From Bacillota bacterium (GTDB taxonomy: Bacteria; Bacillota; Clostridia; Oscillospirales; Oscillospiraceae), in NCBI GenBank assembly GCA_021768085.1, contig JAETOJ010000004.1, positions 62,001-126,000 on the forward strand: DNA of 64,000 nt, written 5' to 3'. The translations under genes were made by a program, and so were the position numbers. The notes below the pieces were generated by a model, which saw only the letters and a list, made by a program, of their open reading frames with translations, searched no databases and was not told where the DNA came from. Positions within the stretch are counted from its first letter, which is position 1; the number at the start of each line of letters is the position of its first letter. Positions 21,791-64,000 of this stretch are shown one piece after another.

Positions 21791-21797
21791 GAACAGG

Positions 21798-21829: not shown

Positions 21830-21869
21830 GCCGTCCGTCCGCCCAAAACGACCGTCCGTCCCGGATCGC

Positions 21870-21898
21870 TGGACATTTGGGGACGGGTTGGGTATACT
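21870..21898 (+). promoter_or_regulatory. Promoter of the LytTR operon
   Basis: TGGACA at 21870-21875, 17 bases, TATACT at 21893-21898. The predicted start near 21905 falls after the ATG at 21903, which supports the TTG at 21927 as the true start of the LytTR gene. Confidence 0.65.
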
Positions 21899-21926
21899 GG
21901 GCATGACAAGAGGGGAGGGGATACCG

Positions 21927-22370: not shown

Positions 22371-22383
22371 AGGAGGGAGAACC

Positions 22384-24086: not shown

Positions 24087-24088
24087 GA

Positions 24089-24115
24089 AAAGGGAGGCTT
24101 CGGCCTCCTTTTTTC
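24089..24115 (+). terminator. Terminator after the LytTR operon
   Basis: A GGAGGC-TTCG-GCCTCC stem, then TTTTTT. Confidence 0.9.
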
Positions 24116-24124
24116 TGTGCGCCC

Positions 24125-24152
24125 TTGCAAATCCCGGAAAAAATGATATACT
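24125..24152 (+). promoter_or_regulatory. Promoter of asnS
   Basis: TTGCAA at 24125-24130, 16 bases, TATACT at 24147-24152. A GC-rich leader of about 105 bases follows, with one clear hairpin (CCCCGCCT / AGGCGGGG). I see no T-box element in it. Confidence 0.6.
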
Positions 24153-24263
24153 ATATCCACGTTTGATCCCCGCCTCCCCAGGCGGGGCCGGGGAACCCCC
24201 TGCCGGCCGCGCCCGCCCCAGCGCCGGCGGCTCCCCAGACTATCAGGAATTGAGGGAACGCAT

Positions 24264-25658
24264 ATGGAACGCATCACCATCGCCTCCGTTTTCGCCGACG
24301 CCGATCGCCTGGACGGCCAGACTATCACCGTCATGGGCTGGGCCCGCACCATCCGGGACATGAAAACCTTCGGCTTTATCGAGCTCAACGACGGCTCCTG
24401 CTTCAAGAACCTCCAGGTGGTCATGGACGCAAACACCTTGGACAACTATAAGGACATCGCCGGCCAGAACGTGGGCGCGGCCCTCATCGTCACCGGCACG
24501 GTGGTGCTCACCCCGGAGGCGAAGCAGCCCCTGGAGGTGAAGGCCGCCTCCATCGCGGTGGAGGGCCCCTCCGCCCCGGAATACCCCCTGCAAAAGAAGC
24601 GCCACAGCGTGGAGTACCTGCGCACCATCCAGCACCTGCGGCCCCGCACCAACCTGTTCTCCGCCGCCTTCCGGGTGCGCTCCGTGGCCGCCCACGCCAT
24701 CCACTGCTTCTTCCAGGATCGGGGCTTTGTGTATATCCACACCCCCATCATCACCGCCTCTGACTGCGAGGGCGCGGGGGAGATGTTCCAGGTCACCACC
24801 CTGGACATGAACAACCCGCCCCGGCTGGAGGACGGATCCGTGGACTGGTCGAAGGACTTCTTCGGCAAGCGGGCCAACCTCACCGTGTCCGGCCAGCTCA
24901 ACGCGGAGAACTTCGCCATGGCCTTCGGCAGCGTTTACACCTTCGGCCCCACCTTCCGGGCGGAGAACTCCAACACCCAGCGCCACGCCGCCGAGTTCTG
25001 GATGATCGAGCCGGAGATGGCCTTCGCCGACCTGGCGGACGACATGGACATGGCCGAGGCCATGATCAAGCACATCATCAACTACGTGATGGAGCGCTGC
25101 CCCGACGAGATGGCCTTCTTTAACTCTTTCGTGGATAAGGGACTGGTGGAGCGCTTACAACACGTGGCCTCCTCCGATTTCGCCCGGGTGAGCTACACCG
25201 ACGCGGTGGAAATACTCAAAAAGAATAACGACAAGTTCGACTACAAGGTGGAGTGGGGCTGCGACCTCCAGACCGAGCACGAGCGCTACCTCACCGAGCA
25301 GGTGTACCAGAAGCCCGTGTTCGTCACCGACTACCCCAAGGACATCAAAGCGTTCTATATGCGGCTGAACGACGACGGGAAAACGGTGGCAGCGGCGGAC
25401 TGCCTGGTGCCGGGGATCGGGGAGATCATCGGCGGCTCCCAGCGCGAGGAGCGCATCGACATACTGGAAAAGCGTATGGCGGAGCTGGGCCTCAATCCCG
25501 AGGATTACTGGTGGTACCTGGATCTGCGGCGGTACGGCTCCTGCCGCCACGCGGGTTTCGGCCTGGGCTTCGAGCGGATGGTGATGTACCTGACGGGCAT
25601 CAGCAACATCCGGGACGTGGAGCTCCACCCCCGCACTGTGGGCAACGCGGAGTTTTAA
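24264..25658 (+). CDS. asnS: Asparaginyl-tRNA synthetase
   Basis: AsnRS charges tRNA-Asn. The 464-residue protein has an N-terminal OB-fold anticodon-binding domain ([25 protein letters not shown]) and a class II catalytic domain with motif 2 ([26 protein letters not shown]) and motif 3 ([18 protein letters not shown]). It ends in the usual RTVGNAEF. The last 40 bases of the gene recur 223 bases downstream (see the repeat entry). Confidence 0.97.
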
Positions 25659-25841
25659 TTCACGCCAGCGGCCTGGCGGCGCAAATGCTGACGGCTCCAC
25701 GTCGGGGCCCCATCGCAGATGGGCGCGCGTCAGCGCGTCCAAGGGTTTGGCCATGCCAAACCCTTGCCGCAGGCGGAATTCACTTCCGCCGAGGAGTTCA
25801 ATCACAAAGGGAACCCCAGCGAATGGAACATTCGCTGGGGA
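25659..25841. repeat. Chain of perfect hairpins after asnS
   Basis: The segment holds at least five inverted repeats in a row: CGCCAG / CTGGCG (25663-25678), CCCATC / GATGGG (25708-25722), AAGGGTTTGG / CCAAACCCTT (25741-25765), GGCGGAA / TTCCGCC (25772-25790) and a 12-bp stem starting CCCCAGCGAATG (25814-25840). No coding potential is evident. It is bounded by the two copies of the asnS 3' end. Confidence 0.8.
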
Positions 25842-25881
25842 GGAGCTCCACCCACGCACCGTGGGCAACGCGGCGTTTTAA
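25842..25881 (+). repeat. Partial duplicate of the asnS 3' end
   Basis: Forty bases that match 25619-25658, the last codons and stop of asnS, at 37 positions. In the same frame they encode [12 protein letters not shown] plus stop. Two of the three differences are silent, so this copy looks like the end of another asnS allele, not a random match. Confidence 0.85.
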
Positions 25882-25928
25882 GCCTATAAAGCGAGCCCCG
25901 GCATTCAAGCAGTTTCCGTAAAGAAGTT

Positions 25929-25966
25929 AACGCCCGCTGAGAAGCATTTGCTTTTCAGCGGGCGTT
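25929..25966. terminator. Hairpin terminator between asnS and the flavin reductase gene
   Basis: An AACGCCCGCTGA / TCAGCGGGCGTT stem between convergent genes. T-rich sequence follows on the plus strand. Confidence 0.7.
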
Positions 25967-25970
25967 GCCT

Positions 25971-26537
25971 TCACTTTTTCAATTTCAGGCCATCCTTGAA
26001 CGCTTCCCCGACGCGTTCCGTCACCTTGTAATACCCATGGGTGTATGGATCAAAGGCAATGGCGTTCACCAGCGACATATTGAGCTTGCCGTCTGCCATG
26101 ACCTTTTCGTCCGCGGTGACATTGACGACCTTTCCGATCACGCCGCAGCCGTATTTGCCATCCTGATACTCCACAAATTCACACTCGAGACACAGTGGAA
26201 ACTCGTTGATCACCGGGGCATCCACCGCTTCGGCTTTGCTGGCGGTAAGGCCGCTGCGGGCGAATTTATCCGCAGCCGTGTTTCCGGATTCCACGCCGAA
26301 ATAGTCCGCCTCCGCCACATGGGCGGCATCGGCTATGCTGACGGTAAAAGCGCCCCGCGCCTTAATGTTTTTCACCGTCTTATGGGTCTCGGTCAAATTG
26401 AGGGCCACGGTTCCCCGCTCTTGCATGGTGCCCCAGGCGGCGTTCATCACATTCACGCTGCCATCCTCATTGTAGGTGGCAACCATCAGAACCGGCATTG
26501 GGAAAATGCCCTCTGTGATGTTCAGCTTTGTTCTCAT
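25971..26537 (-). CDS. Flavin reductase family protein
   Basis: The 188-residue protein belongs to the FMN-binding split-barrel flavin reductases: FPMPVLMVATYNEDGSVNVMNAAWGTMQ, LNLTETHKTVKNIKARGAFTVSIAD and a C-terminal FDPYTHGYYKV. It would reduce free flavin with NAD(P)H or act as an FMN-bound electron carrier. Three ATGs stand in a row at 26543, 26540 and 26537. The last is best spaced from the GAGG ribosome-binding site. It is divergent from an hxlR-type gene, the usual pairing in which HxlR controls the reductase. Confidence 0.9.
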   Translation of the reverse strand: MRTKLNITEGIFPMPVLMVATYNEDGSVNVMNAAWGTMQERGTVALNLTETHKTVKNIKARGAFTVSIADAAHVAEADYFGVESGNTAADKFARSGLTASKAEAVDAPVINEFPLCLECEFVEYQDGKYGCGVIGKVVNVTADEKVMADGKLNMSLVNAIAFDPYTHGYYKVTERVGEAFKDGLKLKK

Positions 26538-26564
26538 CATCATTACCTCACTTTTTCGATAGAG

Positions 26565-26643
26565 TTGACAGGATCAGCTATCCTGTGTATGATTATAGTG
26601 CTGCTGATAAATAATTCAAGTACTGTCATTTTTGATAGGTACT
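26565..26643. promoter_or_regulatory. Overlapping divergent promoters with a palindromic operator
   Basis: Plus strand: TTGACA (26565-26570), 17 bases, TATGAT (26588-26593). Minus strand: TTGAAT (26619-26614), 16 bases, TATAAT (26597-26592). The two -10 boxes overlap. A 7-bp perfect inverted repeat, ACAGGAT / ATCCTGT at 26568-26586, lies in the plus-strand spacer. A looser AGTAC / GTACT repeat at 26619-26643 flanks the other -35 box. These are candidate HxlR sites. Confidence 0.75.
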
Positions 26644-26663
26644 ATTCGGAAGGATAGCGTACT

Positions 26664-26999
26664 ATGATAAAGAACTATATTGAGAACGCGAATTTTGAGG
26701 ATACCGGATTCAGCTATACGCTGTCTCTCATATCCGGCAAGCATAAAATGGTCATTCTGTACTGCCTTATGGAGTACGAGGTCGTGCGGTTCAACGAGTT
26801 GAAACGGTATCTGAAGAACATATCGGACAAAACCCTCAGTACAAACCTGAAAGAGCTGGAGGCAGACCGGCTGATTATCAGAACAGAGTATCCGCAAATC
26901 CCGCCAAAGGTAGAATACAGGCTCAGTGACCGGGGAAAATCCCTGATGGTTGTTCTGGATCAACTGTGTGTCTGGGGCGAACAGAACAGATTGGTCTGA
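26664..26999 (+). CDS. HxlR-family transcription regulator
   Basis: A 111-residue winged-helix protein with the HxlR pattern: LSLISGKHKMVILYCLMEYEVVRFNELKRYLKNISDKTLSTNLKELEADRLI and RTEYPQIPPKVEYRLSDRGKSL. HxlR proteins often sense reactive aldehydes or redox change. It is divergent from the flavin reductase and likely controls both through the shared region. Base composition is clearly lower in GC than its neighbours, which hints at acquisition together with the reductase gene. Confidence 0.93.
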   Translation: MIKNYIENANFEDTGFSYTLSLISGKHKMVILYCLMEYEVVRFNELKRYLKNISDKTLSTNLKELEADRLIIRTEYPQIPPKVEYRLSDRGKSLMVVLDQLCVWGEQNRLV

Positions 27000-27079
27000 A
27001 CAGCAGCTATCTCCCCGCTTTATCGCACTCTCCCGCTGGCGCTTTCGCTGAAAGGTCATAAGTTGGTGACGCAGAATAA

Positions 27080-27116
27080 AAGGGCGGGACAAGCCTTTGT
27101 GGCCTGTCCTGCCCTT
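27080..27116. terminator. Terminator after the HxlR gene
   Basis: A 12-bp stem, AAGGGCGGGACA / TGTCCTGCCCTT, extended by GCC / GGC, followed by AATTTCTT. Confidence 0.8.
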
Positions 27117-27209
27117 AATTTCTTAATGGGTTCTCGCCCCGCCAGGGGTTGTTTTGCATCCCTTGGCCGGCGGCTGGGAAAAATTATTATATTGTTTTTA
27201 ATTTGGGGG

Positions 27210-27263
27210 TTGACTTTTCCGCCGTTCTGGATAAAATAGAGAGCACGCTAATCATTAGTGTGC
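27210..27263 (+). promoter_or_regulatory. Promoter and operator of the MarR-ABC operon
   Basis: TTGACT at 27210-27215, 16 bases, TAAAAT at 27232-27237. An inverted repeat at 27243-27263 with arms GCACGCTAAT and ATTAGTGTGC covers the expected start site and is the probable MarR operator. Confidence 0.8.
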
Positions 27264-27285
27264 GAACGATTTAGGAGGGTTCCCT

Positions 27286-27816
27286 ATGGACGATCCGTCC
27301 GGCCTGCTGCTCCACCAGCTCATGCGGGCCCACCACAACGCCTGCACCGCCGCCCTCAACGCCCTGGGCCTGCGGGACATCGGCTCGCCCCGGCTGCTGC
27401 TGGAGCTGTTCCGTCTCCCCGACGACCCGGATCAGGCCCCCACCCAGAAGGAGCTGGCCGACCGGCTTCACAGCGCGCCGCCCACCATTGCCGCCTCGCT
27501 GAAGGTGCTGGAGCGGCAGGGCTACGTAGAGCGCCGCACCGACGAGAAGGACACCCGGCGCAACCGGATCTCCATCACCCGGAAGGGGCGGGACGCCATC
27601 ACCCAGGGGATGGACGCCTTCCGGCAGGTGGACGCCCATATGTACGCGGGCTTCACCCAGGAGGAGCGGGCGCTGATGCGGCAGCTTCACAGCCGGATGC
27701 TGGCCAATCTGTACCAGATCGGCGGGGACAAGCGGCAGGATCCGCCCCACGATCCCCTGGGCCCGCCAACCGACCCTCCTCCAGACCCCTTTGAAAGGAA
27801 GTGCAGGACTTGTTAA
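27286..27816 (+). CDS. MarR-family transcription regulator
   Basis: A 176-residue MarR protein with the winged helix PTQKELADRLHSAPPTIAASLKVLERQGYVERRTDEKDTRRNRISITRKG. The C-terminal 30 residues are a proline-rich tail (DPLGPPTDPPPDPFERK), unusual for MarR. Read against the operon it probably represses the two ABC half-exporters that follow; its end overlaps the start of the first. Confidence 0.93.
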   Translation: MDDPSGLLLHQLMRAHHNACTAALNALGLRDIGSPRLLLELFRLPDDPDQAPTQKELADRLHSAPPTIAASLKVLERQGYVERRTDEKDTRRNRISITRKGRDAITQGMDAFRQVDAHMYAGFTQEERALMRQLHSRMLANLYQIGGDKRQDPPHDPLGPPTDPPPDPFERKCRTC

Positions 27817-29546
27817 AACGCATCGCCTCTTACATGAAGGGCTATGAGCGGTATGTCATCGGCTCCCCTGTGCTGGTGATTGTGGAGACCATCTGCCAGC
27901 TGATCATCCCCCTGCTCATGGCCCGCATCATCAACGAGGGCATCCTGAAGGAGGACATGGCCCCCATCTGGCAGTCCGGGGCGCTGATGGTGGTGGTGGC
28001 CTTGGCCGCTACCATTACCGGCGCTGCGGCGGCCAAGTGCGCCACCAACGCCGCTCAGGGCCTGGGCGCCAACCTGCGCCGGGCGGAGTTTGAGCGGGTG
28101 GCCTCCTTCTCCTTTGCCGACATCGACAAATTTTCCTCCTCCTCCCTCATCACCCGGATGACCAACGACGTGACCAACATCCAGAACACGTCCATGATCT
28201 GCCTGCGCATCCTCATCCGGGCGGTGACCATGCTCATCGCCAGCGTGGTGCTCACCCTGTCCATCAACCCGCGCCTGGCCCTGGTGGTGTTGGTGATCCT
28301 GCCCATCATGGCGGTGGCGCTGCTGATCCTGATGAAGATCTGCTTCCCCCTGTTCGAGAGGATGCAGAAGGCCCTGGATCACCTCAACGAGCAGGTGCAG
28401 GAAAACCTCATCGCCGTGCGGGTGGTGAAGTCCTACGTCCGGGAGGATCGGGAGCGGGAGAAGTTCATCGACGCCAACGACGGCTTCACCGCCGCCGGCC
28501 TGCGGGCGGTGCTGCGCATGGTGGCCATCCAGCCCGTGATGATGATCTGTATGTCCGCCGCCACCGTGCTGGTGCTCTATTTCGGCGGGCAGATGGTGCT
28601 GGGCCTGGAGATGGATCTGGGCTACCTCCAGACCGTGTTGGACTATATCATGCAGATCCTCATGTCCATCATGATGGTGGGCATGGCCGTCCTCCAGCTC
28701 ACCCGCACCCAGGCCTCCATCCGCCGGGTGTTTGAGGTCATCGACGCCCAGCCCTCCGTCACCGACGGGGAGCGGCAGAGCCTGCCCGCCCCCCAGGGCC
28801 GGGTGGAGTTCAAGGACGTGTCCTTCCGCTACCAGACCGAGGGGGCCGGGGAGGACGTGCTGAGGCACATCAACCTGACGGTGGAGCCCGGCCAGTTCGT
28901 GGCCATCGTGGGCGGCACCGGCACGGGCAAGTCCTCCCTGGTGAACCTGATCCCCCGGTTCTACGATGTGCACAAGGGCCAGGTGCTGGTGGACGGGCTG
29001 GACGTGCGGGACTACCCGCTGGACGGCCTCCGGGGCCGCATCGGCATGGTGCTGCAAAACAACGTGCTGTTCTCCGGCACCATCCGGGAGAACCTCCTCT
29101 GGGGCAACGAGAACGCCACCGAGGAGGAGCTGATCCAGGCCGCCAAGGACGCCCAGGCCTACGACTTCATCATGTCCTTCCCCGAGGGCTTCGACACCTA
29201 TCTGGAGCAGGGGGGCGTCAACGTGTCCGGCGGGCAGAAGCAGCGCCTTTGCATCGCCCGGGCCATGGTGCGCAGGCCGGCGGTGCTCATTCTGGACGAC
29301 TCCACCTCCGCCGTGGACTCCGCCACCGAGAGCCGCATCCGGGAGTCCTTCCGGGACAACCTGCGGGGCACCACTGTCATCATCATCGCCCAGCGGATCA
29401 GCTCGGTGCAGTACGCCGACAAGATCGTGGTGCTGGACGAGGGCACGGTGGCCGACGTGGGCACCCACGACGAGCTGATGGAGAGCAGCAAAATCTATCG
29501 CGAGATCTACGACTCCCAGCAGGAAGGAGGGGACGGCAATGGCTGA
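27810..29546 (+). CDS. ABC exporter half-transporter, first of a pair
   Basis: A 578-residue fused membrane-ATPase protein of the type I multidrug exporter group. About six membrane segments fill residues 15-300. The ATPase has Walker A GGTGTGKSS, Q-loop VLQNNVLFSGTI, signature VSGGQKQR, Walker B VLILDDSTSAVD and switch IAQRIS. The D-D-S in Walker B replaces the usual D-E, so its catalytic glutamate is lacking, as in degenerate heterodimer partners. I favour the TTG at 27810, well spaced from AAAGGA; a GTG at 27801 is the alternative. It pairs with the next gene. Confidence 0.92.
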   Translation: MLKRIASYMKGYERYVIGSPVLVIVETICQLIIPLLMARIINEGILKEDMAPIWQSGALMVVVALAATITGAAAAKCATNAAQGLGANLRRAEFERVASFSFADIDKFSSSSLITRMTNDVTNIQNTSMICLRILIRAVTMLIASVVLTLSINPRLALVVLVILPIMAVALLILMKICFPLFERMQKALDHLNEQVQENLIAVRVVKSYVREDREREKFIDANDGFTAAGLRAVLRMVAIQPVMMICMSAATVLVLYFGGQMVLGLEMDLGYLQTVLDYIMQILMSIMMVGMAVLQLTRTQASIRRVFEVIDAQPSVTDGERQSLPAPQGRVEFKDVSFRYQTEGAGEDVLRHINLTVEPGQFVAIVGGTGTGKSSLVNLIPRFYDVHKGQVLVDGLDVRDYPLDGLRGRIGMVLQNNVLFSGTIRENLLWGNENATEEELIQAAKDAQAYDFIMSFPEGFDTYLEQGGVNVSGGQKQRLCIARAMVRRPAVLILDDSTSAVDSATESRIRESFRDNLRGTTVIIIAQRISSVQYADKIVVLDEGTVADVGTHDELMESSKIYREIYDSQQEGGDGNG

Positions 29547-31740
29547 GCACAAAGGCCCTCACGGCCCCGGCGGGCCCCATGGCGGGCCCCGCGGCGGCTA
29601 CGGCAAACCCAAGGATCTGCGCCGCACCATGCTGCGCACCGTGAAGTATATCGCCAACCGGCCCGTCCTGCTCATCGCGGCGCTGGTCAGCGTGGTGGCG
29701 TCCGCCCTGCTGGGTGTGGCGGCCACCTACCTGCAAAAGCCCATCATCGACGGCATCACCAGCGCCTGGGCGGCAGGGGAGGCCCAGTGGCCTGAGCTTG
29801 CCGCCTGCTGCCTGCGGCTCATGGCCGCCTATGTGCTGGCGTCGGTGTGTTCCTACGTCCAGTCCAACCTGATGGCCCAGCTGGCCCAGAAGGGCTGCAA
29901 CCGGATGCGCAAGGAGCTGTTCGACAAGCTCCAGGAGCTGCCCCTGAGCTACTTTGACGCCCACACCCACGGCGAGCTCATGAGCCGCTTCACCAACGAC
30001 GCGGACAACGTGCAGCTGGCCCTGGAGCAGTCGGTGGTGCAGCTCATCTCCAGCGCCGTCACCTTTGTGGGCGTGGTGGCCATGATGATCACCCTGTCCC
30101 CGCTGCTGTTTTTGGCCTCGGTGGTGATGCTGGCCGCCGTCATGTCGGTGTTCACCGTGTTCGGCAAGCGCAGCCGGAAGTATTTCTCCAAACAGCAGGC
30201 CGCTTTAGGCGCGGTGAACGGCAACATCCAGGAGATGATCGAGGGCATGAAGGTGGTCAAGGCCTTCAACCACGAGGAGCAGGCCAAGGCCCAGTTCCAG
30301 GCCCTCAACGAGGAGTACCGCTCGGCGGCCAGCCAGGCGGGGTTCTACTCCTCCGCCATCATGCCTGTGGCCTCCAACCTGACCTATATCGGCTACGCCG
30401 TCACCGCCGTCTTAGGCGCCGCCCTGGCCATGAGCGCCGGCGTGAACGTGGGCTTCACCCTGGGCTCCCTGGTAACCTACCTGAAGTACAATCAGCAGGT
30501 CACCCAGCCCATCAACCAGATCTCCATGCAGATGAACTCCCTGCTGTCCGCCATGGCGGGGGCGGAGCGCATCTTCGCCGTCATGGACACCGATCCCGAG
30601 GTGGATCGGGGCCAGGTCACCCTGGTGCCGGTGGAGAAGGACGCCAACGGCTCCCTGTCCAAGTTCACCGGCCAGGGCCGGCCCAAGAACTGGGCCTGGA
30701 AGGTGCCCCGGAACTGCGGGCTCATCCTGGCCCCCGTGCTGGTGGGGGCGGAGGAGGCCGTCACCGAGCTGGGCCAGGCGGACGAGGAAAACGGCGCGCT
30801 GAAGCTGCTGCCCCCCGGCGCGGAGTCCAAAACCGGCCTGTGGGTGCGGATCGGCCCCGACGGGGCCCTCACCCCCATCACAGCGGAGGAGATGGCCTCC
30901 CACCGCTGGGCCTGGAAGTACCCCGGCCCCAACGGGGCCATGGGCTACCACCTCATCCGGGGCGCCGTGCGCAACGTGCCCGGCGAGGAATTCTGCTATA
31001 CCGAGCTGCGGGGCGCGGTGCGGCTGAGCCATGTGGACTTCTCCTACGTGGAGGGCAAGCCGGTGCTGAAGGATATGTCCGTCTACGCCGACCCCGGGCA
31101 GAAGATCGCCTTCGTGGGCTCCACCGGCGCGGGTAAAACCACCGTCACCAACCTGATCAACCGCTTCTATGAGATCCAGGGAGGCCTTATCACCTGCGAC
31201 GGCATCGACGTGCGGGACATTGAGAAGGACTCCCTGCGGCTGAGCCAGGGCGCGGTGCTCCAGGACACCCACCTGTTCACCGGCACGGTGATGGACAACA
31301 TCCGTTACGGCCGGCTGGACGCCACCGACGAGGAGTGTATCTCCGCCGCCAAGACCGCCAACGCCGACGGCTTCATCCGCCGCCTGCCAGAGGGTTATCA
31401 GACGATGCTCACCGGGGACGGGGCCAATCTGTCCCAGGGCCAGCGGCAGCTGCTGTCCATCGCCCGAGCAGCGGTGAAAGATCCCCCCATCATGGTGCTG
31501 GACGAGGCCACGTCCTCCATCGACACCCGCACCGAGCGGCACATCCAGCAGGGCATGGACGCCCTGATGGAGGGGCGGACGGTGTTTGTCATCGCCCACC
31601 GGCTGTCTACCGTGCGCAACGCGGACTGTATCGTGGTCATTGAGCACGGCGAGATCATGGAGAAGGGCAGCCACGCCCAGCTCATGGAGGAGCAGGGGCG
31701 GTACTACCAGCTCTACACCGGGCAGTTTGAATTGGACTAA
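29539..31740 (+). CDS. ABC exporter half-transporter with inserted domain, second of a pair
   Basis: The 733-residue protein begins with a glycine- and histidine-rich leader, then six membrane segments and an ATPase (Walker A GSTGAGKTT, signature LSQGQRQLL, Walker B IMVLDEATSSID with the catalytic Glu, switch IAHRLS). Between membrane and ATPase domains lies an extra 120-130 residues (about 360-490) with two WAWK-P motifs. The complete catalytic site here matches the degenerate one in its partner, as in asymmetric heterodimeric exporters. It overlaps the previous gene and is followed by a terminator. Confidence 0.93.
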   Translation: MAEHKGPHGPGGPHGGPRGGYGKPKDLRRTMLRTVKYIANRPVLLIAALVSVVASALLGVAATYLQKPIIDGITSAWAAGEAQWPELAACCLRLMAAYVLASVCSYVQSNLMAQLAQKGCNRMRKELFDKLQELPLSYFDAHTHGELMSRFTNDADNVQLALEQSVVQLISSAVTFVGVVAMMITLSPLLFLASVVMLAAVMSVFTVFGKRSRKYFSKQQAALGAVNGNIQEMIEGMKVVKAFNHEEQAKAQFQALNEEYRSAASQAGFYSSAIMPVASNLTYIGYAVTAVLGAALAMSAGVNVGFTLGSLVTYLKYNQQVTQPINQISMQMNSLLSAMAGAERIFAVMDTDPEVDRGQVTLVPVEKDANGSLSKFTGQGRPKNWAWKVPRNCGLILAPVLVGAEEAVTELGQADEENGALKLLPPGAESKTGLWVRIGPDGALTPITAEEMASHRWAWKYPGPNGAMGYHLIRGAVRNVPGEEFCYTELRGAVRLSHVDFSYVEGKPVLKDMSVYADPGQKIAFVGSTGAGKTTVTNLINRFYEIQGGLITCDGIDVRDIEKDSLRLSQGAVLQDTHLFTGTVMDNIRYGRLDATDEECISAAKTANADGFIRRLPEGYQTMLTGDGANLSQGQRQLLSIARAAVKDPPIMVLDEATSSIDTRTERHIQQGMDALMEGRTVFVIAHRLSTVRNADCIVVIEHGEIMEKGSHAQLMEEQGRYYQLYTGQFELD

Positions 31741-31744
31741 ATTG

Positions 31745-31777
31745 GAAGGGGAGGCCCCGCGGGGCTTCCCCTTCTCC
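31745..31777 (+). terminator. Terminator after the ABC exporter operon
   Basis: A GAAGGGGAGGCCCC / GGGGCTTCCCCTTC stem with short loop. Confidence 0.8.
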
Positions 31778-31824
31778 GTTCTCTGTGGTAAAATGGGGAA
31801 AAACGGGGAAAGGGGGCTTTGCCC

Positions 31825-33066
31825 ATGTCCGTGGTCAGCCGTCAATTTCAGATGGTGTACCTGCTGCTGGAGCGGGGCCGCATGACCGCCGCCGAGCTGG
31901 CCCAACGGCTGGAGGTGTCCCAGCGCACGGTGCTGCGGGACGTGGACGCTTTATCCGCCGCCGGGGTGCCCGTCTACACCGCCCAGGGGGCCGGGGGCGG
32001 GGTGGCCCTGCTCCCCGGCCACGTGCTGGACAAGGCCGCCCTGTCCGACGAGGAGCAGCGGCAGCTCCTGCTGGCCCTGCAAAGCCTGCCCGGCGGGGAG
32101 GGGGATCAGGCCCTTACCAAGCTGTCTGCCCTGTTCCGCCGGGAGCCGGAGGACTGGCTCCAGGTGAACCTGTCCCGCTGGGGGGCGGGTACGGCGGACA
32201 GCTATAAGTTCCAGCTTCTGAAGCGGGCGGTGCTGGAGCGGCGGGTGCTCCGTTTTGACTACGCCAGCTCCTACGGCTCCACCCGGCCCCGGCGGGTGCT
32301 GCCCGCCCGGCTGGTGTTCAAGGGCCAGGGGTGGTACTTGCAGGCCTACGACCCGGAGCGGGAGGGCTACCGCACCTTCCGCCTGTCCCGCATCCTGTCC
32401 CCGGAGTTCACCGGGGAGGGGTTTCACCAGCCGCTGAACCCCCCGGAGGTGGACTATTCCGGCGAGATCCCGCCCCTGTTCCGGGTGTCCGTCCGGCTGC
32501 GCTTTGCCCGCTGCATGGCCTACCGGGTGTACGACGAGTTTGATCAGAGCTGCGTGTCCGTCCAGCCGGACGGCTCGCTGATCGTGGAGACGGTGTTCCC
32601 CGAGGATCAGTGGCTGTACGGCTACCTGCTCAGCTTCGGGGCGGCGGTGGAGGTGCTCTCGCCGGACACCCTGCGCCGACGGCTGGCCGCCCTGGGTCGG
32701 GAAATTTATTTTGCCCACACGTCGGAACCTGACACACCCTGTCAGGTTTTAGATGATACCATGGAACCATCCCAAACAGAGGAGGTTCCAACCATGGAAC
32801 AATACAAAGACATGAAGTTCTGCCAGTCCTGCGGGATGCCCCTGGGCCCCGACACCGCCCACGGCACCGAGGCGGACGGCTCCCCCAGCGCGGACTACTG
32901 CTCCTACTGCTACAAGGACGGGAAGTTCGCGGGGGAGATGACCATGGACGAGATGATCGACTTCTGCGCCCCCATGATGGCCCAGGCCAACCCCGGCATG
33001 ACCCAGGAGCAGGCCAAGGCCCAGATGCACCAGTTCTTCCCCATGCTGAAGCGGTGGAAGCGGTAG
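31825..33066 (+). CDS. WYL-domain regulator fused to a zinc-ribbon protein
   Basis: The 413-residue frame joins two known parts. Residues 1-60 are an HTH of the YafY/DeoR type (LLERGRMTAAELAQRLEVSQRTVLRDVDAL); residues about 130-305 are a WYL ligand domain (RAVLERRVLRFDYASSYG, GWYLQAYDPEREGYRTFRLSRI). From about residue 324 the sequence switches to a zinc-ribbon protein (FCQSCGMPLG, then YCSYCYKDGKF) of the PF12674 kind. In relatives I recall these as separate neighbours. An ATG at 32794 with AGGAGG in front could still start the ribbon alone. The WYL start at 31825 follows AAAGGGGG. Confidence 0.85.
   Translation: MSVVSRQFQMVYLLLERGRMTAAELAQRLEVSQRTVLRDVDALSAAGVPVYTAQGAGGGVALLPGHVLDKAALSDEEQRQLLLALQSLPGGEGDQALTKLSALFRREPEDWLQVNLSRWGAGTADSYKFQLLKRAVLERRVLRFDYASSYGSTRPRRVLPARLVFKGQGWYLQAYDPEREGYRTFRLSRILSPEFTGEGFHQPLNPPEVDYSGEIPPLFRVSVRLRFARCMAYRVYDEFDQSCVSVQPDGSLIVETVFPEDQWLYGYLLSFGAAVEVLSPDTLRRRLAALGREIYFAHTSEPDTPCQVLDDTMEPSQTEEVPTMEQYKDMKFCQSCGMPLGPDTAHGTEADGSPSADYCSYCYKDGKFAGEMTMDEMIDFCAPMMAQANPGMTQEQAKAQMHQFFPMLKRWKR
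32728..32793 (+). promoter_or_regulatory. Vestigial or active promoter, operator and RBS inside the WYL-zinc ribbon ORF
   Basis: The palindrome CCTGACA-CACCC-TGTCAGG (32728-32746) overlaps a possible -35 (CTGACA). It is followed after 17 bases by GATGAT as a poor -10, then GAGGAGG and an ATG at 32794 in frame with the ribbon domain. Confidence 0.55.
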
Positions 33067-33076
33067 CCTCGAAATT

Positions 33077-33108
33077 GCCCCCGGATTTGCTCCGGGGGCT
33101 TCCCTTTT
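33077..33108 (+). terminator. Terminator after the WYL/zinc-ribbon gene
   Basis: A GCCCCCGGA / TCCGGGGGC stem followed by TTCCCTTTT. Confidence 0.85.
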
Positions 33109-33164
33109 CCCAGTTCCTGTGCTATAATAAATCCTCACTTTCGTAGGATAGCGAGGGAAAGCAA

Positions 33165-33953
33165 ATGAGGATTGTGGTGAAGATCGGCACCTCCACCCTG
33201 GCCCACGCCGCCGGGCGGCTGAACATCCGTCGGGTGGAGGGGCTGGTGAAGGTGCTGTCTGATCTGAAGAATCAGGGGGAGCAGCTCATTTTGGTGTCCT
33301 CCGGGGCCATCGGCATGGGAGTGGGCAAACTCAACCTCCCCGGCCGCCCGGCGGATATGCCCACCAAGCAGGCCGCCGCCGCGGTGGGCCAGTGCGAGCT
33401 GATGTATACCTACGACAAGCTGTTCGGCGAGTACAACCACGCCGTGGCCCAGCTCTTGCTCACCGGGGAGGACGTGCGCTTCCCCCACCGGCGGCAGAAC
33501 TTTGTCAACGCCATGGAGCGCCTGCTGGAGCTGGGCGTGCTGCCCATCGTCAACGAGAACGACGCGGTGGCCACCGACGAGGTGGGGGAGGCCACCACCA
33601 TCGGGGAGAACGACACCCTGGCCGCCATTGTGGCCGAGTGCGTAGGGGCGGATCTACTGGTGCTGCTCAGCGACATCGACGGGCTGTATACCGCCGACCC
33701 CCACCGGAGCACAGACGCCGCCCTCATTCCGGAGGTGCAGGAGATCACAGCGGATCTGCGGGCGCTGGCAGGGGATCCCGGCTCCGCCCTGGGCACCGGG
33801 GGCATGGCCACCAAGCTGAAGGCGGCGGACATCGCCATGGCCTGCGGCTGCGACATGGTGATCGCCAACGGCCGGCAGCCAGAGCTGCTGTATGACATCG
33901 CGGCAGGACTGCCTGTGGGCACCCGCTTTGTGGGAAGGAGGGAGGACGCATGA
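33165..33953 (+). CDS. proB: Glutamate 5-kinase
   Basis: ProB phosphorylates glutamate in the first step of proline synthesis. The 262-residue form has the amino-acid kinase domain ([63 protein letters not shown]) but no C-terminal PUA domain, a known shorter version. A TATAAT at 33123-33128 may be its -10 box; the start at 33165 follows AGGATAGCGAGGGAAAGC. It overlaps proA by four bases. Confidence 0.97.
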
Positions 33954-35206
33954 CAACCCGAGAACTGCTGGAGCGGGCTAAGGGGGCCAAAGCCGCTATG
34001 GCCCTGGCGGACACCCTGATAAAAAACCGGGCGCTGCTGGCCATGGCCGACGCGCTGGTGGACAACACTCAGGCCGTCCTCACCGCCAACGGCCTGGATC
34101 TCATCGAGGCCAAGGGCACCGTGTCCAATGTGATGCTGGATCGCCTTGCCCTCAATGAGGAACGGATCCTCAGCATGGCTCAGGGGGTGCGGGAGGTGGC
34201 CGCCCTCCCCGACCCGGTGGGGGCGGTACTCACCCGCCGCAAGCGCCCCAACGGCCTGGTCATCGACAAAACCGCCGTCCCCATGGGGGTCATCGCCATC
34301 ATCTACGAGAGCCGGCCCAACGTCACGTCGGACGCGGCGGCCCTGGCCCTGAAGGCGGGCTCCGCCTGCGTACTGCGCTGCGGGAAGGAGGCCCACCGCT
34401 CCGCCGCCGCCATCGTGTCCGCCCTGCGGGAGGGCTTGTCCGCCGCGGGTCTGCCCCAGGACGCGCTGGGGCTGGTGGACGACATCTCCCGGCAGTCCGC
34501 CGTGGAGCTGATGCAGGCGTCCGGGCTGGTGGATCTGCTCATACCCCGGGGGGGCGCTGGGCTCATCCGGGCCTGCGTGGAGCAGGCCACCGTCCCCGTC
34601 ATTGAGACGGGCACCGGCATCTGCCACATCTACGTGGACCGGGACGCGGATCTGGACATGGCGCTGTCCATCGTGGAGAACGCCAAGTGTTCCCGCCCCA
34701 GCGTGTGCAACGCCGCCGAGGTGTGCCTGGTGCACCGGGACGTGGCGGCCGCCTTCCTGCCCCGGCTGCGGGAGCGGCTGGTGGAGGGCAGGAGGGGGAA
34801 GGGCCTGCCCCCGGTGGAGCTGCGGCTGGACGAACAGGCCGCCGCCCTCATCCCGGGCAAGCCCGCCGGGGACGAGGACTTCGACACGGAGTTCCTGGAC
34901 TACATCCTGGCGGTGAAGGTGGTGGACGGCGTGGACGGGGCCTGTGCCCACATCGCCGCCCACTCCACCGGCCACAGCGAGGCCATCGTCACGGAAAACG
35001 CGGAAGCGGCCAAGCGGTTCACCGCCCTGGTGGACTCGGCGGCGGTGTACTGGAACGCCTCCACCCGGTTCACCGACGGCGGGGAGTTCGGCCTGGGCTG
35101 CGAGATGGGCATTTCCACCCAGCGGCTCCACGCCCGGGGCCCCATGGGGCTGGCGGAGCTGTGCAGCTACAAATACATTATCCAAGGGAACGGGCAAATC
35201 CGGTAA
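33950..35206 (+). CDS. proA: Gamma-glutamyl phosphate reductase
   Basis: ProA reduces gamma-glutamyl phosphate to the semialdehyde using NADPH, the second step of proline synthesis. The 418-residue protein carries the family marks [37 protein letters not shown], the catalytic cysteine in [14 protein letters not shown] and the C-terminal [23 protein letters not shown]. Start and proB stop overlap (ATGA), so the two are coupled. Confidence 0.97.
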
Positions 35207-35207
35207 C

Positions 35208-35249
35208 AAAAAACGCAGACCCGCGGCAGTTTTGCAGGTCTGCGTTTTT
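35208..35249 (+). terminator. Terminator after proBA
   Basis: An AAACGCAGACC / GGTCTGCGTTT stem with a T run. Confidence 0.85.
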
Positions 35250-35379
35250 ATGTTTCATCAAGCACCCTGTTTCGTCACCGTCGCAAAACGCAAAGGTCTG
35301 CACCTGTTGGAAGCGAGCTTCAAGTTCGCGGGTCTAAGACCCTTTTCGGTTCCTTTTTCTTTCAAGAAAAAGGAACAAA
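35250..35379. repeat. Hairpin-bearing spacer after proBA
   Basis: It includes GGGTC-TA-AGACCC near 35334-35346 and a 13-bp hairpin with arms GTTCCTTTTTCTT and AAGAAAAAGGAAC at 35349-35376, just past the end of the DUF6512 gene, where it may stop transcription. No gene is seen. Confidence 0.5.
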
Positions 35380-35901
35380 CTACACCGGAATGGTCAAAAA
35401 CGTCCGCAGCCCCTGACTGAGATCGGCGAACAGCGCCGCGTCCGGCGGGAAGAAGGTGAACCACACGATGAGCGCCCCCAGCAGGCCCGTCAGGATCCAC
35501 GCCGCTGTGGACGTACCCGGCCACTCGCACAGCAGCCACAGCGTCCGGGGCAGCAGGAACCCCAGAGCCAGGGGCAGGAAAAACAGGATCAGATCCACGA
35601 TCATGGACTCCCCCCGGAACACCACGTGGTACAGGTAGCCCGCCCCCAGCATCACCGCGCAGGCCACCACCGTGGACAGCAGCCAGGCGGGCAGGCCCAG
35701 CCCCTTGCCCCGGCCCAGGATCAGGGAGACGGCCAGCAGGGGGAAATAGATCAGCTTCACGTGCTCCCACACGCTCTCCCGCACCGGGGAGATGAGGGCG
35801 AACACCGGGTTGGGCAGCCACTGGTACAGGAAGTGGAGCAGCACCCCGGCCACGGCGGCCAGGGCGTAGGCCAGCAGCATTTTTTTGGTTGTTTTTTCCA
35901 T
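35380..35901 (-). CDS. DUF6512 family membrane protein
   Basis: A 173-residue membrane protein with about five hydrophobic segments. It carries the conserved LPNPVFALISPVRESVWEHVKLIYFPLL motif that marks DUF6512. Function is unknown. The ATG at 35901 follows a GAGGTGTGTTT site; the frame continues upstream to 36045 but without membrane or family features. Confidence 0.82.
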   Translation of the reverse strand: MEKTTKKMLLAYALAAVAGVLLHFLYQWLPNPVFALISPVRESVWEHVKLIYFPLLAVSLILGRGKGLGLPAWLLSTVVACAVMLGAGYLYHVVFRGESMIVDLILFFLPLALGFLLPRTLWLLCEWPGTSTAAWILTGLLGALIVWFTFFPPDAALFADLSQGLRTFLTIPV

Positions 35902-36366
35902 AAACACACCTCGCTTTGGTATTAAGGATATGCCCAAGATGGGGCAAACTATGTTTGTCCCATTGAAAAAACGCGGGAAATCGCCGCGATTCAAATTTTG
36001 ACACAGACAGGAAACCCTGCTAAATGCCGGGGAACTCCCACACATTTCCCAGCATAGAACCGAAAATGCGCCCAGTCATGGCACTGGTTCCGCCGCCCTT
36101 GTCAAACCCGCCTTACTTTGCCACGGTGAAAATCCGTCCCCGCCGCCATATTAAAAGGGCGGGCGCTGAGACGGCGGCGGTTCTTTTTTCCGCCGCTGTC
36201 CCTCCGCCCACCGGTTTCAAAAACGCGCGGTCAAGTTCGGTTCCGTCCCCGCAGGGAGCGAAACCGCCGGCCGGCCGCACGGAACCAAACGGCGCGGTCA
36301 AGCGTATTCCCGCCCCGACAGGGGCGGGAATACCGGCCAAACCCGCGTAAAAACAGAAGGCGGTGA
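35902..36366. other. 465-bp gap before spoIVB
   Basis: I see no convincing gene. The second half contains strong inverted repeats: GGTTCCGT (about 36239) with ACGGAACC (about 36279), and TATTCCCGCCCC / GGGGCGGGAATA around 36304-36332. The first half is AT-richer and may hold promoters of both neighbours; a sporulation-sigma promoter for spoIVB is likely but I could not assign boxes. Confidence 0.5.
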
Positions 36367-37419
36367 ATGGATTTGAATGAAGAAGCAAGACCATTTGTGG
36401 GGGCGGCGGCGCTGCGGGGCGCGGCGCTGCTGCTGGCGGCGGTGCTGACCCTGTGGCCCACCGTGGCCACGGCCTGGGCCAGCCCAGCTATTGTGGTGCC
36501 CGTGGGCCGGGCGGTGGGCATCAAGCTCTTTTCCGACGGCGTGGTGGTGGTGGGCACCTCCGAGGTGGCGTCGGAGGGCGGCAACGTGAACCCGGCCAAG
36601 GACTGCGGCCTGCGGGAAGGGGACATCATCACCCACATCAACGCCACCGAGGTGGACACCATCGAGGAGGTATCCGCCCTCCTCCAGGAGCTGGAGGGCC
36701 AGACCATGAGCATCCGGGCCATCCGGGACGAGAAGCAGGTGCAGCTCACCGCCACGCCGGTGCTGTGCCCTGCGGACGGGGCCTATAAGCTGGGCGCCTG
36801 GATCCGGGACTCCATGGCGGGCATCGGCACGGTGACCTTCTACGACCCGGCCACCGGCGCCTTCGGCGCCCTGGGCCACGGCATCAACGACACGGACACC
36901 GCCCTGCTCATGCCCCTGGAGAGCGGCTCCATCCTGCCGGCCACCGTGGCCGGGGTGGAGAAGGGCAGAAGCGGCGCACCGGGACAGCTCAAGGGCGTGT
37001 TTGACACCGCGTCCACCCTGGGCCTGCTCCGGGCCAATACCGCCGGCGGCGTGTTCGGCACCCTCACCGACGGCCATTGGGTAGACGGCGCGGCGGTGGA
37101 GGTGGCGGCCCGGGACGAGGTCTGCCCCGGCCCCGCCCAGATCCTCTGCAACATCTCCGGCGACCGGGTGGACAGGTTTGACGTGGAGATCGCCAAGGTG
37201 TTCGCTGAGCGGGAGGACGACTGCCGGGACTACCTGATCAAGGTGACCGATCAGCGGCTGCTGGACGCCACCGGCGGCATCGTCCAAGGGATGAGCGGCA
37301 GCCCCATCCTGCAAAACGGGAAAATTGTGGGGGCGGTGACCCACGTGATGGTGGACGACCCCACCAGCGGCTACGGCATCTACGTGGGCCGTATGCTGAA
37401 CCTGGACGGGGCGGCGTAA
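36367..37419 (+). CDS. spoIVB: SpoIVB-type sporulation serine peptidase
   Basis: SpoIVB is secreted from the forespore and cleaves SpoIVFA to let the mother cell process pro-sigma K. The 350-residue protein has an N-terminal membrane segment (residues 13-37), a PDZ domain (about 90-145, with GLREGDIITHINATEV), and an S55 peptidase domain with catalytic His in GALGHGIND and Ser in VQGMSGSPILQNGKI. Its presence argues the organism, or a recent ancestor, makes spores. spo0A, often next to it, is not here. Confidence 0.95.
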   Translation: MDLNEEARPFVGAAALRGAALLLAAVLTLWPTVATAWASPAIVVPVGRAVGIKLFSDGVVVVGTSEVASEGGNVNPAKDCGLREGDIITHINATEVDTIEEVSALLQELEGQTMSIRAIRDEKQVQLTATPVLCPADGAYKLGAWIRDSMAGIGTVTFYDPATGAFGALGHGINDTDTALLMPLESGSILPATVAGVEKGRSGAPGQLKGVFDTASTLGLLRANTAGGVFGTLTDGHWVDGAAVEVAARDEVCPGPAQILCNISGDRVDRFDVEIAKVFAEREDDCRDYLIKVTDQRLLDATGGIVQGMSGSPILQNGKIVGAVTHVMVDDPTSGYGIYVGRMLNLDGAA

Positions 37420-60743: not shown

Positions 60744-61115
60744 ATGCTCAGCCTAAACTACCGGGACAGCCGCCCCATCTACGAACAGGTGCGGGACGGG
60801 CTGCGCCGTCTCATCATCACGGGGGCCATCCCGGCGGGGGATAAGCTGCCCTCGGTGCGGGCCATGGCGGGCCAGCTGGCCATCAACCCTAACACCATCC
60901 AGCGGGCCTACGAGTCGTTGGAGCAGGAGGGCTACGCCTACTCGGTGCCGGGGAAGGGAAGCTTCGCCGCCCTGCCCCGGGACGTCACCGACAAGCGCCG
61001 GGAGGAGCTGCTGGAAAAGCTGGACGCCATCGTGCAGGAATTGGACTACCTGGGGATGAGCCGGGAGGACGTGGCCCGGCGGTGTACGCGGCAAGGGAAG
61101 GAGGAACCGCAATGA
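60744..61115 (+). CDS. GntR-family (YtrA-type) transcription regulator
   Basis: A 123-residue winged-helix protein: RPIYEQVRDGLRRLIITGAIPAGDKLPSVRAMAGQLAINPNTIQRAYESLEQEGYAYSVPGKGSFAAL, with a short C-terminal helical tail. It is a paralogue-type partner to the protein at 6249-6623 and likewise heads an ABC operon. Its stop overlaps the ATPase start. Confidence 0.93.
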   Translation: MLSLNYRDSRPIYEQVRDGLRRLIITGAIPAGDKLPSVRAMAGQLAINPNTIQRAYESLEQEGYAYSVPGKGSFAALPRDVTDKRREELLEKLDAIVQELDYLGMSREDVARRCTRQGKEEPQ

Positions 61116-62014
61116 TTGAGGTAAAAAACGTGGTCAAGAGCTTTGACGGCTTCCACGCCCTGGATGGGCTCACCATGACGGTGCCCCGAGGGGCCATCTA
61201 CGGCCTGGTGGGCCCCAATGGGGCGGGCAAGTCTACCATCCTGCGCCACCTCACCGGGGCCTACCGGCAGGATTCCGGCGAGATCCTGCTGGAGGGGGCC
61301 CCCATCTACGAAAACCCCGCCGTGAAGCGGCGCATGGCGGGCATACCCGACGAGCTGTACTACTTCACCTCCGCCTCCACCCGGGACATGATGAAGTTTT
61401 ACCGGGGCATTTACCCCTCCTTCGACGGGGAGCGGTATGAAAAGCTGAAGGCGGCCTTCCCGGAGGTGGACGAGAAGCGGCCCATCCGCCGCCTGTCCAA
61501 GGGGATGCAGAAGCAGGCCGCCTTCTGGCTGGCCCTGAGCTGCAAGCCGGACTACCTGCTGCTGGACGAGCCGGTGGACGGGCTGGATCCGGTGATGCGG
61601 CGGCAGGTGTGGTCGCTGCTCATGGGGGACGTGGCGGAGCGGGGCACCACGGTGGTGGTGTCCTCCCACAACCTGCGGGAGCTGGAGGACGTGTGCGATC
61701 ACGTGGGCATCCTGAACCACGGCAGGGTGGCGCTGGAGCGCTCCCTGTCCGAATTGCAGGGGGGCACGGTGAAGCTGCAAATTGCCTTCCCCACGGATGA
61801 TCCCCCCGCCCTGCCCGAGGGGGTGCAGGTGCTCCACACCGATCACACGGGGCGGGTGTATACCTACATCGTCCGGGGGAATCCGGAGGAGGTGGAGGCC
61901 CGGTTCAAGCCCCTGAACCCGCTGTTCCTGGAGGCCCTGCCCCTGACGCTGGAGGAGATCTTTATCTATGAACTGGGAGGTGAGGACTATGCGGTCCGGG
62001 ACATCGTTCTTTAA
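61112..62014 (+). CDS. ABC transporter ATP-binding protein
   Basis: A 300-residue ABC ATPase with Walker A GPNGAGKST, the signature segment RLSKGMQKQAAFWLAL, Walker B YLLLDEPVDGLDP and switch VSSHNLRELEDV. The C-terminal tail is about 80 residues. The ATG at 61112 overlaps the regulator stop. It would energise the permease that follows, which is truncated in this genome. Confidence 0.94.
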   Translation: MIEVKNVVKSFDGFHALDGLTMTVPRGAIYGLVGPNGAGKSTILRHLTGAYRQDSGEILLEGAPIYENPAVKRRMAGIPDELYYFTSASTRDMMKFYRGIYPSFDGERYEKLKAAFPEVDEKRPIRRLSKGMQKQAAFWLALSCKPDYLLLDEPVDGLDPVMRRQVWSLLMGDVAERGTTVVVSSHNLRELEDVCDHVGILNHGRVALERSLSELQGGTVKLQIAFPTDDPPALPEGVQVLHTDHTGRVYTYIVRGNPEEVEARFKPLNPLFLEALPLTLEEIFIYELGGEDYAVRDIVL

Positions 62015-62504
62015 CGGGACTGTGTTCAAGAAAACCGTCCTGCGGTTCTGGCCCCTGTGGGGGGTGTACTTTGTCATCTGGCTGGTACTGCTGCCTCTGA
62101 ACGGGCTGATGACCCTCCAGTACAGCACCGGGATGGGCTTCAACGGCGCCATGGGGAATTTCGCCATCGACACCGTGCCCGCCACGGCCCAGGGCTTTGG
62201 CCTGGGCCTCATGGTGGTGTTCGGCGCACTGTGCGCCATGGCGGTGTTCGGCCACCTCTACAACCCCCGGTCGGCCAACTTCTTCGGTTCCCTGCCGGTG
62301 CGGCGGGAGGGGCTGTTCCTCACCCACTACCTGGCGGGGCTGGCCTTCCTCCTCGTGCCCAACCTGGTGATCTGCCTGCTCACCCTGCTGGTGGAGCTGG
62401 CGGGGGGCGTGATGTGCTGGGCCGGCCTGGGGTTCTGGCTGGCGGTGATGTGCGGGGAGGGGTTCTTCTTCTACTCCCTGGCTGTAGCGCGACGAGATTT
62501 TTGA
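61989..62504 (+). pseudogene. ABC permease truncated at a prophage junction
   Basis: Translation gives about 165 residues of an ABC-2-like permease with four hydrophobic segments (TVLRFWPLWGVYFVIWLVLL, GFGLGLMVVFGALCAMAVFGH, NFFGSLPVRREGLF, LVPNLVICLLTLLVELAGG), then FFFYSLAVARRDF and a stop. Full-length relatives go on for several hundred residues after FFYSLAV, so the last six residues are foreign. The start at 61989 follows GGGAGGTGAGGACT and overlaps the ATPase end by 26 bases. The exporter is probably inactive unless the element excises. Confidence 0.85.
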
Positions 62505-62688
62505 GAAATGCGGACAAGATAAATGAGAAAAAATAGCGCCGTTCTTAGAAGTAAATCCGAGCTCGCCCACTTGCGCCGACCGCCCCCAGCGAGGGGAGCG
62601 GCCCGAGCGAGAGGGCGGGCTTTTTAAGGCTCCGGGAGGGAGCGGCTTTTGCCGCCCCTCCCTTGCCTTTTAGCCCGCTGTAGGGTAG

Positions 62689-63228
62689 TTACTCCCCCGG
62701 CTCCTCCGAGGCCCCACCCTGGGCCTCCTGGGGGGCTTCCTGGGGCTCCGGCTCACTGTACTCCGCCCAGCCGTAGACGCCGGGCTCCCATACGTTGCCG
62801 TCCACCTCGGAGACCCACTTCTTTCCGTTGTGGGAGGTCTTCGCGTCCTTGCTGTAGGCGTCATGCGCTCCGATGGGCTGAACCCACTCCGGGAACTCCT
62901 CGAGGGGGTTGCCGATGGGCGTCCACATCGAGGGTGTCTCCGAGGGCTTGCGGTTCTGCCCGGCGTCCTTGACGTCGTGGATGGAGCGGTAGAGCTGGCC
63001 CTCGTCCTCGACGATGTCGCCCGCCTTGCCTCTCCAGTTCTCGTCCCATTGGACAAAGAGGTCGGGGTGCTCCGCGATTGTCGTCTCGTCGAGCTGTTCC
63101 TCCTGGGCCATCTTGACGAACATGAGGGCCGCGACCTCCTGGGCCGAGGCGCTGCGCCGGGCCTCCCGCTGGATTTCAGAGACAGGCCGGGGCGGCGTCA
63201 AATAGCTAATTCCGTTTTGTTCGCTCAT
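62689..63228 (-). CDS. Phage tail-associated protein with carbohydrate-binding-like domain
   Basis: The 179-residue protein has a helical N-terminus and a C-terminal repeat of tryptophan-rich segments (DLFVQWDENW, SMWTPIG, EFPEWVQPIGAHDAYSKDAKTSHNGKKWVSEVDGNVWEPGVYGWAEY) of the chitin-binding/CBM5-12 kind seen in phage tail fibres. The end is a PEPQEAPQEAQGG low-complexity tail. Its ATG overlaps the upstream stop (ATGA), so it is co-translated with the next tail gene. A host-surface recognition role is inferred. Confidence 0.8.
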   Translation of the reverse strand: MSEQNGISYLTPPRPVSEIQREARRSASAQEVAALMFVKMAQEEQLDETTIAEHPDLFVQWDENWRGKAGDIVEDEGQLYRSIHDVKDAGQNRKPSETPSMWTPIGNPLEEFPEWVQPIGAHDAYSKDAKTSHNGKKWVSEVDGNVWEPGVYGWAEYSEPEPQEAPQEAQGGASEEPGE

Positions 63229-64000
63229 TCAAAAGCACCTCCGAAGCCGGAGACGGAGATTTCCCCGTCATACCCCTCATTCTTGACGAGCTTGAAGCGG
63301 ACGTTCACGCCCCACTTGTCCGCCGTCTTTGTCGTGTTGGTGAAGTTGAAGACCCGGTTGAGGAAGACCATCGCCGTGATGTCCTCCCACGTCGGAACCT
63401 CATCGAAGGCATTGTTGCAAGCCTCCACGAGAACGGTCGCGCCCTCGGTCTTCCAGGTGGGCGTGATGAGGATTTTTGAGGCCCTCGCGTCGGTCTCCTC
63501 GGGGGCGGCGAGCTGGAACTCGATGATCTTCTCATCCTTGGAGAAGTTCCAGACCCTCACGCTCGTCGCGAAGTTGCCGTCGACGGCCTCGACCCGGAGC
63601 TGGTGGGCCCCATTGGTGAGGGTGAGCCACTCATTCCGCGAGAGTACGATCGTTTCCGTCTGCCCGAGGGTCGCTTGATAGCTCCTGATCTGCTTATCGT
63701 CCACGAACTCGGTGACGACCACGTTGTCGCCCTCGACGTCGGTGACGACGTACTCCTCGGCAAAGTTTCCCGTTTGAAGCCCGAGGTCGGTGTCCTGCCC
63801 GGAGATACTCGGCGCGGAGTTGGTGCGCTTGAAGGTGACGCGGCGGTAGGCCGTGCCGCCCTTGCCGTCTGTGACGGTGATCTTGAGGGTGTTGACCGAA
63901 TTGAGGCCCAGGTTGTAGAGCTGCTCCGCTGTGATGGAGATGGAGAGCGTCTCACCCTTCGGGGCGTTGTTGATCGTGCGGAGCTCCTGATCGTTGAGCT
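63225..64000 (-). CDS. Phage structural or tail protein with Ig-like repeats, N-terminus outside the window
   Basis: The frame is open to the right edge, giving about 257 residues. It contains beta-sandwich repeats (ETLSISITAEQLYNLGLN, NTLKITVTDGKGGTAYRRVTFKRTNSAPSISG, LTLTNGAHQLRVEAVDGN) and a C-terminal globular part (KTEGATVLVEACNNAFDEVPTWEDITAMVFLNR). Ig-like repeats are common in phage tail and adhesion proteins. It is the gene directly upstream of the carbohydrate-binding protein. Confidence 0.78.
   Translation of the reverse strand, partial: LNDQELRTINNAPKGETLSISITAEQLYNLGLNSVNTLKITVTDGKGGTAYRRVTFKRTNSAPSISGQDTDLGLQTGNFAEEYVVTDVEGDNVVVTEFVDDKQIRSYQATLGQTETIVLSRNEWLTLTNGAHQLRVEAVDGNFATSVRVWNFSKDEKIIEFQLAAPEETDARASKILITPTWKTEGATVLVEACNNAFDEVPTWEDITAMVFLNRVFNFTNTTKTADKWGVNVRFKLVKNEGYDGEISVSGFGGAFE

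Follow-up and report, generated by a model that had tools for sequence, protein, structure and literature searches.

An ABC transporter permease gene of this genome almost certainly contains an inserted transposable prophage, Mu-type and akin to Mushu, whose insertion duplicated 5 bp and placed its right end toward the 5′ half of the gene. Both junctions were recovered, together with the duplicated target, a gene content and gene order colinear with Faecalibacterium phage FP_Mushu, and the corresponding empty sites in related genomes. The window, i.e. the whole stretch of 64,000 nucleotides that was analysed, comprises bases 62001-126000 of a contig of 130,331 bases (C33), which belongs to a genome of 110 contigs with a completeness of 90.6%. 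The relevant features of the window are the following:

60744..61115, plus strand: GntR-family regulator, with which the interrupted operon begins (Pfam GntR, 1.2e-15)
61112..62014, plus strand: ABC transporter ATPase with an intact ORF, listed from 61082 (Pfam ABC_tran, 2.2e-24)
61989..62482, plus strand: N-terminal part of an ABC-2-type permease, 164 complete codons and two bases, the remainder being on contig C25 from base 339
62478..62482, plus strand: target-site duplication CTGGC, repeated at C25:339-343 and present as a single copy in relatives
62483..62569, minus strand: right terminus of the prophage, TGTAGCGCGACGAGATTTTTGAGAAAT..., 87.5% identical to the right end of Mushu, with homologous ends beside unrelated flanks in nine other genomes
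62483..64000, no strand assigned: right-hand portion of the transposable Mushu-like prophage, which goes on past the window to the end of C33 (5849 bases on C33)
62689..63228, minus strand: 179-aa ORF with a CBM5/12 match of 23.8 bits, below the Pfam cut-off of 26.2
63225..64000, minus strand: C-terminal part of a Hoc-like Ig-domain protein, the retroelement target gene, which continues outside the window

The permease ORF opens with the ATG at 61989 and reads ...GEGFFFYSLA followed by VARRDF and a stop codon (62502-62504). Its N-terminal part scored 20 bits against Pfam ABC2_membrane_5, under the cut-off of 25, and its best match among the closest named relatives found showed 86% identity, in uncultured Oscillospiraceae genomes. 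The host sequence ends at base 62482 and the element starts at 62483, the T of TGTAGCGCGAC; the break that the original prediction had placed at 62484 is real, but about a base off. The permease keeps 164 intact codons, after which a short tail is encoded by phage DNA. Since it is truncated, the GntR-ABC operon is most likely left without a working membrane subunit, which would entail a loss of transport.

The missing 3′ half, which was expected at the other end of the element, begins at C25:339 in the same genome (match C25:339-1727); from base 342 its frame is uninterrupted for 480 codons, and C25:1-338 is phage sequence. A TPP riboswitch was also observed on the minus strand of C25, a few kb past this second half (L038:4598-4715). 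The junction on C33 reads ...TACTCC-CTGGC-TGTAGCGCGAC..., the junction on C25 reads ...CCCCTTACA-CTGGC-GGTGTTCTG, and the uninterrupted gene of one relative (L007) reads CTCCCTGGCGGTGTTCTG; CTGGC is found on both sides of the element and once in the relatives. The termini of the element are TGTA...TACA, i.e. TG...CA ends, and this Mu-type combination of TG/CA termini with a 5-bp target duplication occurs here with CTGGC and in two relatives with ATAGG and GATAC. A wrong joining of phage DNA to the permease, by chimeric assembly or binning, had been raised as an alternative, and it would fit a fragmented assembly in which the element is spread over four contigs. Such a chimera is very improbable, because the two halves of the permease complement each other on separate contigs, and at the exact point of each join the same five bases adjoin a different phage terminus.

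Further evidence for a genuine insertion comes from the uninterrupted gene. We searched 41 relatives of the same genus and fetched 29 loci, one best match each; in most of the 12 unfetched relatives the ATPase gave a match, and the permease was matched over a short stretch only. In 26 of the 29 the best match stopped at window 62485, base 1386 of the query, and the agreement past 62482 in these last bases is due to chance. The three exceptions were L022, ending at 1302 at a contig end, L034, ending at 1378, and L029, in which the match ended at 911 and a second piece at 1386. Because 26 of 29 matches end at the same base, the break at 62482 is not a matter of chance. In all 29 loci the N- and C-terminal parts of the permease share a reading frame, their alignments being separated by 0 or 3 nt, and 28 of them contain no stop across the aligned range; in the remaining one (L028) a single stop follows 591 open codons, at a point well beyond the site, and L022 and L029 run off the ends of their loci. 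It had been proposed that an intact permease in a related strain would speak against an insertion, but the inference runs the other way: these intact genes represent the empty site and support the insertion of a prophage-like element into the permease gene.

The element is distributed over contigs C25, C48, C84 and C33, which align to positions 6-275, 5437-23799, 23840-31083 and 31026-36636 of Mushu, respectively, with unaligned stretches inside the alignment and four small matches among internal repeats. The ends of C33 and C84 overlap exactly over 76 bases; exact overlaps were searched among the other element contig ends and none was found, and the C25-C48 and C48-C84 links are drawn because these contigs are colinear with Mushu. 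The equivalent of Mushu 276-5436, comprising the repressor region and the N-terminus of MuA, was not seen on the four contigs, except for a 174-base stretch of C48 aligning, out of order, with Mushu 2061-2231. The C25 end is 68% identical to the left end of Mushu over 290 bases, and the 87.5% identity of the C33 end to the right end extends over 88 bases. The genes follow the order MuA, MuB, Gam, Mu-type head genes and contractile tail, followed by a diversity-generating retroelement next to the right end. Twenty-three element proteins were chosen from C48 and C33 for a tblastn search against Mushu, and C84 was compared as DNA only. Twenty-two of them matched, with 51-90% identity and in the order of Mushu; the 179-aa right-end ORF was the only one of the 23 without a match.

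Several transposition and head genes were recognised by Pfam models over their cut-offs (Mu-transpos_C, DDE_2, Phage_Mu_Gam, Portal_Mu, Phage_Mu_F, Mu-like_Pro and Mu-like_gpT). The MuA gene on C48 encodes the DDE and C-terminal Mu domains (PF02914, 9e-12; PF09299, 4.2e-16), its N-terminus being missing at the contig end, and the PF09299 match is the only one in the whole genome. An AAA_22 ATPase with 81% identity to the MuB of Mushu occupies the MuB position. The terminase had no match in Pfam and is 89.8% identical to that of Mushu and 90.2% identical to that of an unannotated faecal phage record. Two further contigs, C93 and C75, were considered as parts of the element on account of rve matches (PF00665; over the cut-off for C93, below it for C75) and were rejected; the fetched stretches of these two contigs and of C88 gave no blastn match to Mushu.

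Integration by a large serine recombinase, which the original prediction had considered alongside a Mu-like phage, would be compatible with an insertion inside an ORF and with the 15 PF00239 matches present elsewhere in the genome. C25, C48 and C84 contain none of these 15, and neither does the part of C33 that belongs to the element; the single match on C33 is about 116 kb away, and the element encodes MuA, MuB and Gam. Moreover, the 5-bp duplications differ between copies, and homologous ends occur beside unrelated flanks in nine other genomes. This reading retains a practically negligible probability, and it was the Mu-like option that held, with its duplication, its TG...CA ends, its transposition genes and its colinearity with Mushu. 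Strand transfer by a Mu-type phage, presumably with MuA as the agent, would have duplicated CTGGC within the permease gene and left the right end facing the 5′ half.

The comparison with other genomes was based on the 200-base right end, which was searched in 400 genomes of the family and matched in 15, its own included. Five of these (G266, G329, G340, G410 and G423) gave weak matches starting away from the terminus, and in nine (G361, G055, G108, G186, G126, G309, G114, G424 and G115) the match opened with TGTAGCGCGAC. The 1000 host bases before the right end showed no pairwise blastn match among the ten genomes. For two genomes of other genera both termini were found on one contig, 36,429 bp apart with the 5-bp duplication ATAGG in G055, and 37,055 bp apart with GATAC in G114; these lengths were worked out by hand, and genes were read inside the left end. 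There, MuA relatives of 70% (G055) and 55% (G114) identity were accompanied in both cases by relatives of MuB and Gam. As a side observation, the second base of the 5 bp beside the right end is a pyrimidine in nine of the ten genomes (own included), a small sample. The target consensus of Mu likewise has a pyrimidine at its second base.

The right end of the element carries a diversity-generating retroelement (L004:5226-8985, on C33 and mostly past the window), consisting of Avd, a template, an RT-9 RNA, a reverse transcriptase and the Hoc-like target. Phage tail-type genes had been expected beyond the break, which is only roughly right: the first two genes are the ORF with the weak carbohydrate-binding-module match and the Hoc-like decoration protein. 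Pfam RVT_1 and bAvd were over the cut-off, and the Rfam RT-9 RNA was found beside the template with 82.7 bits. Template (L004:8459-8560) and variable region (L004:6404-6506, outside the window) differ by 13 mismatches in the first 94 ungapped aligned bases, all at the 21 template adenines, for which random placement gives a chance of 7e-11; the last 8-9 aligned bases, where there is a single gap and, at a template T, a single mismatch, were left out of this count. A reverse transcriptase, Avd and template/variable repeats differing at template adenines, which define a retroelement of this type, are all present. The variable region corresponds to residues 193-226 of a 618-aa ORF, and that of Mushu, judged by alignment, is internal too (34819-34869 within gene 34375-36099). 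As listed, this 618-aa ORF overlaps with the gene of the reverse transcriptase, so the real start of the Hoc-like target probably lies further in. As read from these genes, the retroelement of the phage may be able to vary the Hoc-like surface protein, provided that both phage and retroelement are active.

The 179-aa ORF gave 0 matches in a PDB sequence search (E up to 1). It is present in G361, G055, G108 and one IMG/VR contig (L046), and six IMG/VR contigs encode the reverse transcriptase of the retroelement with 83-98% identity. The retroelement genes were found together with the ORF in G055 and G108. Neither Avd, reverse transcriptase, target nor 179-aa ORF was found in about 4.2 kb inside the right end of G114 or in about 1.5 kb of G115, and the right-end module is therefore not common to all such elements. 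Elsewhere in the genome under study, contig C88 (L041 = G000:C88:10000-25000, about 4682-7647) contains a second reverse transcriptase (33%), a Hoc-like stretch (43%) and an ORF related to the 179-aa one (44%), adjoining one another, and C93 contains a further relative of the 179-aa ORF (50%; L039 12405-12782).

Multicopy sequence was identified where C48 and C84 face each other (L043, C48, 1-131; L074, C84, about 7970-8090), which suggests that an insertion sequence probably separates the sheath gene of the prophage from its tube gene. The C84 end has copies at C51:1-117 (98%) and C46:19647-19744 (94%), and the C48 start at C34:1-116 (100%) and C46:1-108 (72%), all of them at a contig end or close to one. 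In the annotation of Mushu the sheath and tube genes are 16 bp apart. No transposase was recognised by eye in the ORF lists of the C46 and C51 stretches, and on C46 a fragment resembling a tyrosine recombinase was noticed by eye. These multicopy stretches, together with the left-end genes that were not seen, would be expected if the insertion were real but the prophage a decaying remnant, unable to transpose or make particles. We regard this as a possibility of some weight, yet the less likely one, given that the examined element genes are open and 51-90% identical to those of Mushu, that the interrupting sequence appears between genes and that the unseen part coincides with contig ends.

Among known phages, the Mu-type prophage described here is closest in organisation to FP_Mushu (Mushuvirus mushu; NC_047913, BK063464), with which it shares gene order, Mu-type head and transposition genes, termini, the 5-bp repeat, and, at the right end, Avd and a reverse transcriptase with a Hoc-like Ig-domain protein as their target. 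It differs in the gp53-gp54 genes found at the right end of Mushu, where the 179-aa ORF lies here, in the probable insert between sheath and tube, and presumably in its host genus. A colinear genome and homologous termini, as expected for Mushuvirus, were found, and DNA identity is about 75% in the long aligned blocks, about 5 kb being unseen and parts not aligning. Phage genera are delimited at about 70% nucleotide identity over the whole genome. The element may belong to Mushuvirus itself or to a sister genus.

With phage Mu the element shares MuA, Gam, the 5-bp duplication and, by Pfam, a Mu-like portal, protease and major head protein; it differs in the retroelement near its right end, whereas Mu varies its fibres through an invertible segment. 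Bacillus phage BalMu-1 is likewise a transposable phage with a retroelement reverse transcriptase, which is 28% identical, its terminase being 38% identical. Mu-like phages with retroelements in Firmicutes were reportedly described by Toussaint in 2013. The Bacteroides hankyphage carries a retroelement as well, and excerpts of its description present it as a transposable phage.

The retroelement, transposition and 5-bp repeat of Mushu are already published. Passages of one study describe replication by transposition with a 5-bp direct repeat at the integration site, and a retroelement aimed at the Hoc-like protein with a variable region that varies in virion reads (PMC5883640). Sections of a second study confirm transposition across the host genome, and these sections report no clear variation peak at the variable region of Mushu, a peak being shifted to its 3′ side in three of four experiments, for which the authors considered a temporary inactivation (PMC11792537). 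Parts of a third study mention prophages found in several hosts, as well as an identity of 97.7% to an ancient genome (PMC10805732). The novelty is limited to the member itself, a relative of Mushu that has another gene at its right end and probably an insertion sequence separating the sheath gene from the tube gene.

It is conceivable, though rather doubtful, that the element represents a sister genus of Mushuvirus spreading among Oscillospiraceae genera, and that the 179-aa protein partners the retroelement-varied Hoc-like protein, perhaps as a second carbohydrate-binding surface module travelling with such targets, as the adjoining reverse transcriptase, Hoc-like stretch and ORF relative on C88 would suggest. 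For this relative of Mushu, found in a genome of an uncultured member of the Oscillospiraceae, the analysis provides the exact integration site with both junctions and the target duplication; it also adds two relatives from other genera, each with a target site of its own. The insertion offers an example of a Mushu-type phage interrupting a host transporter gene and leaves the current understanding of these phages unchanged.
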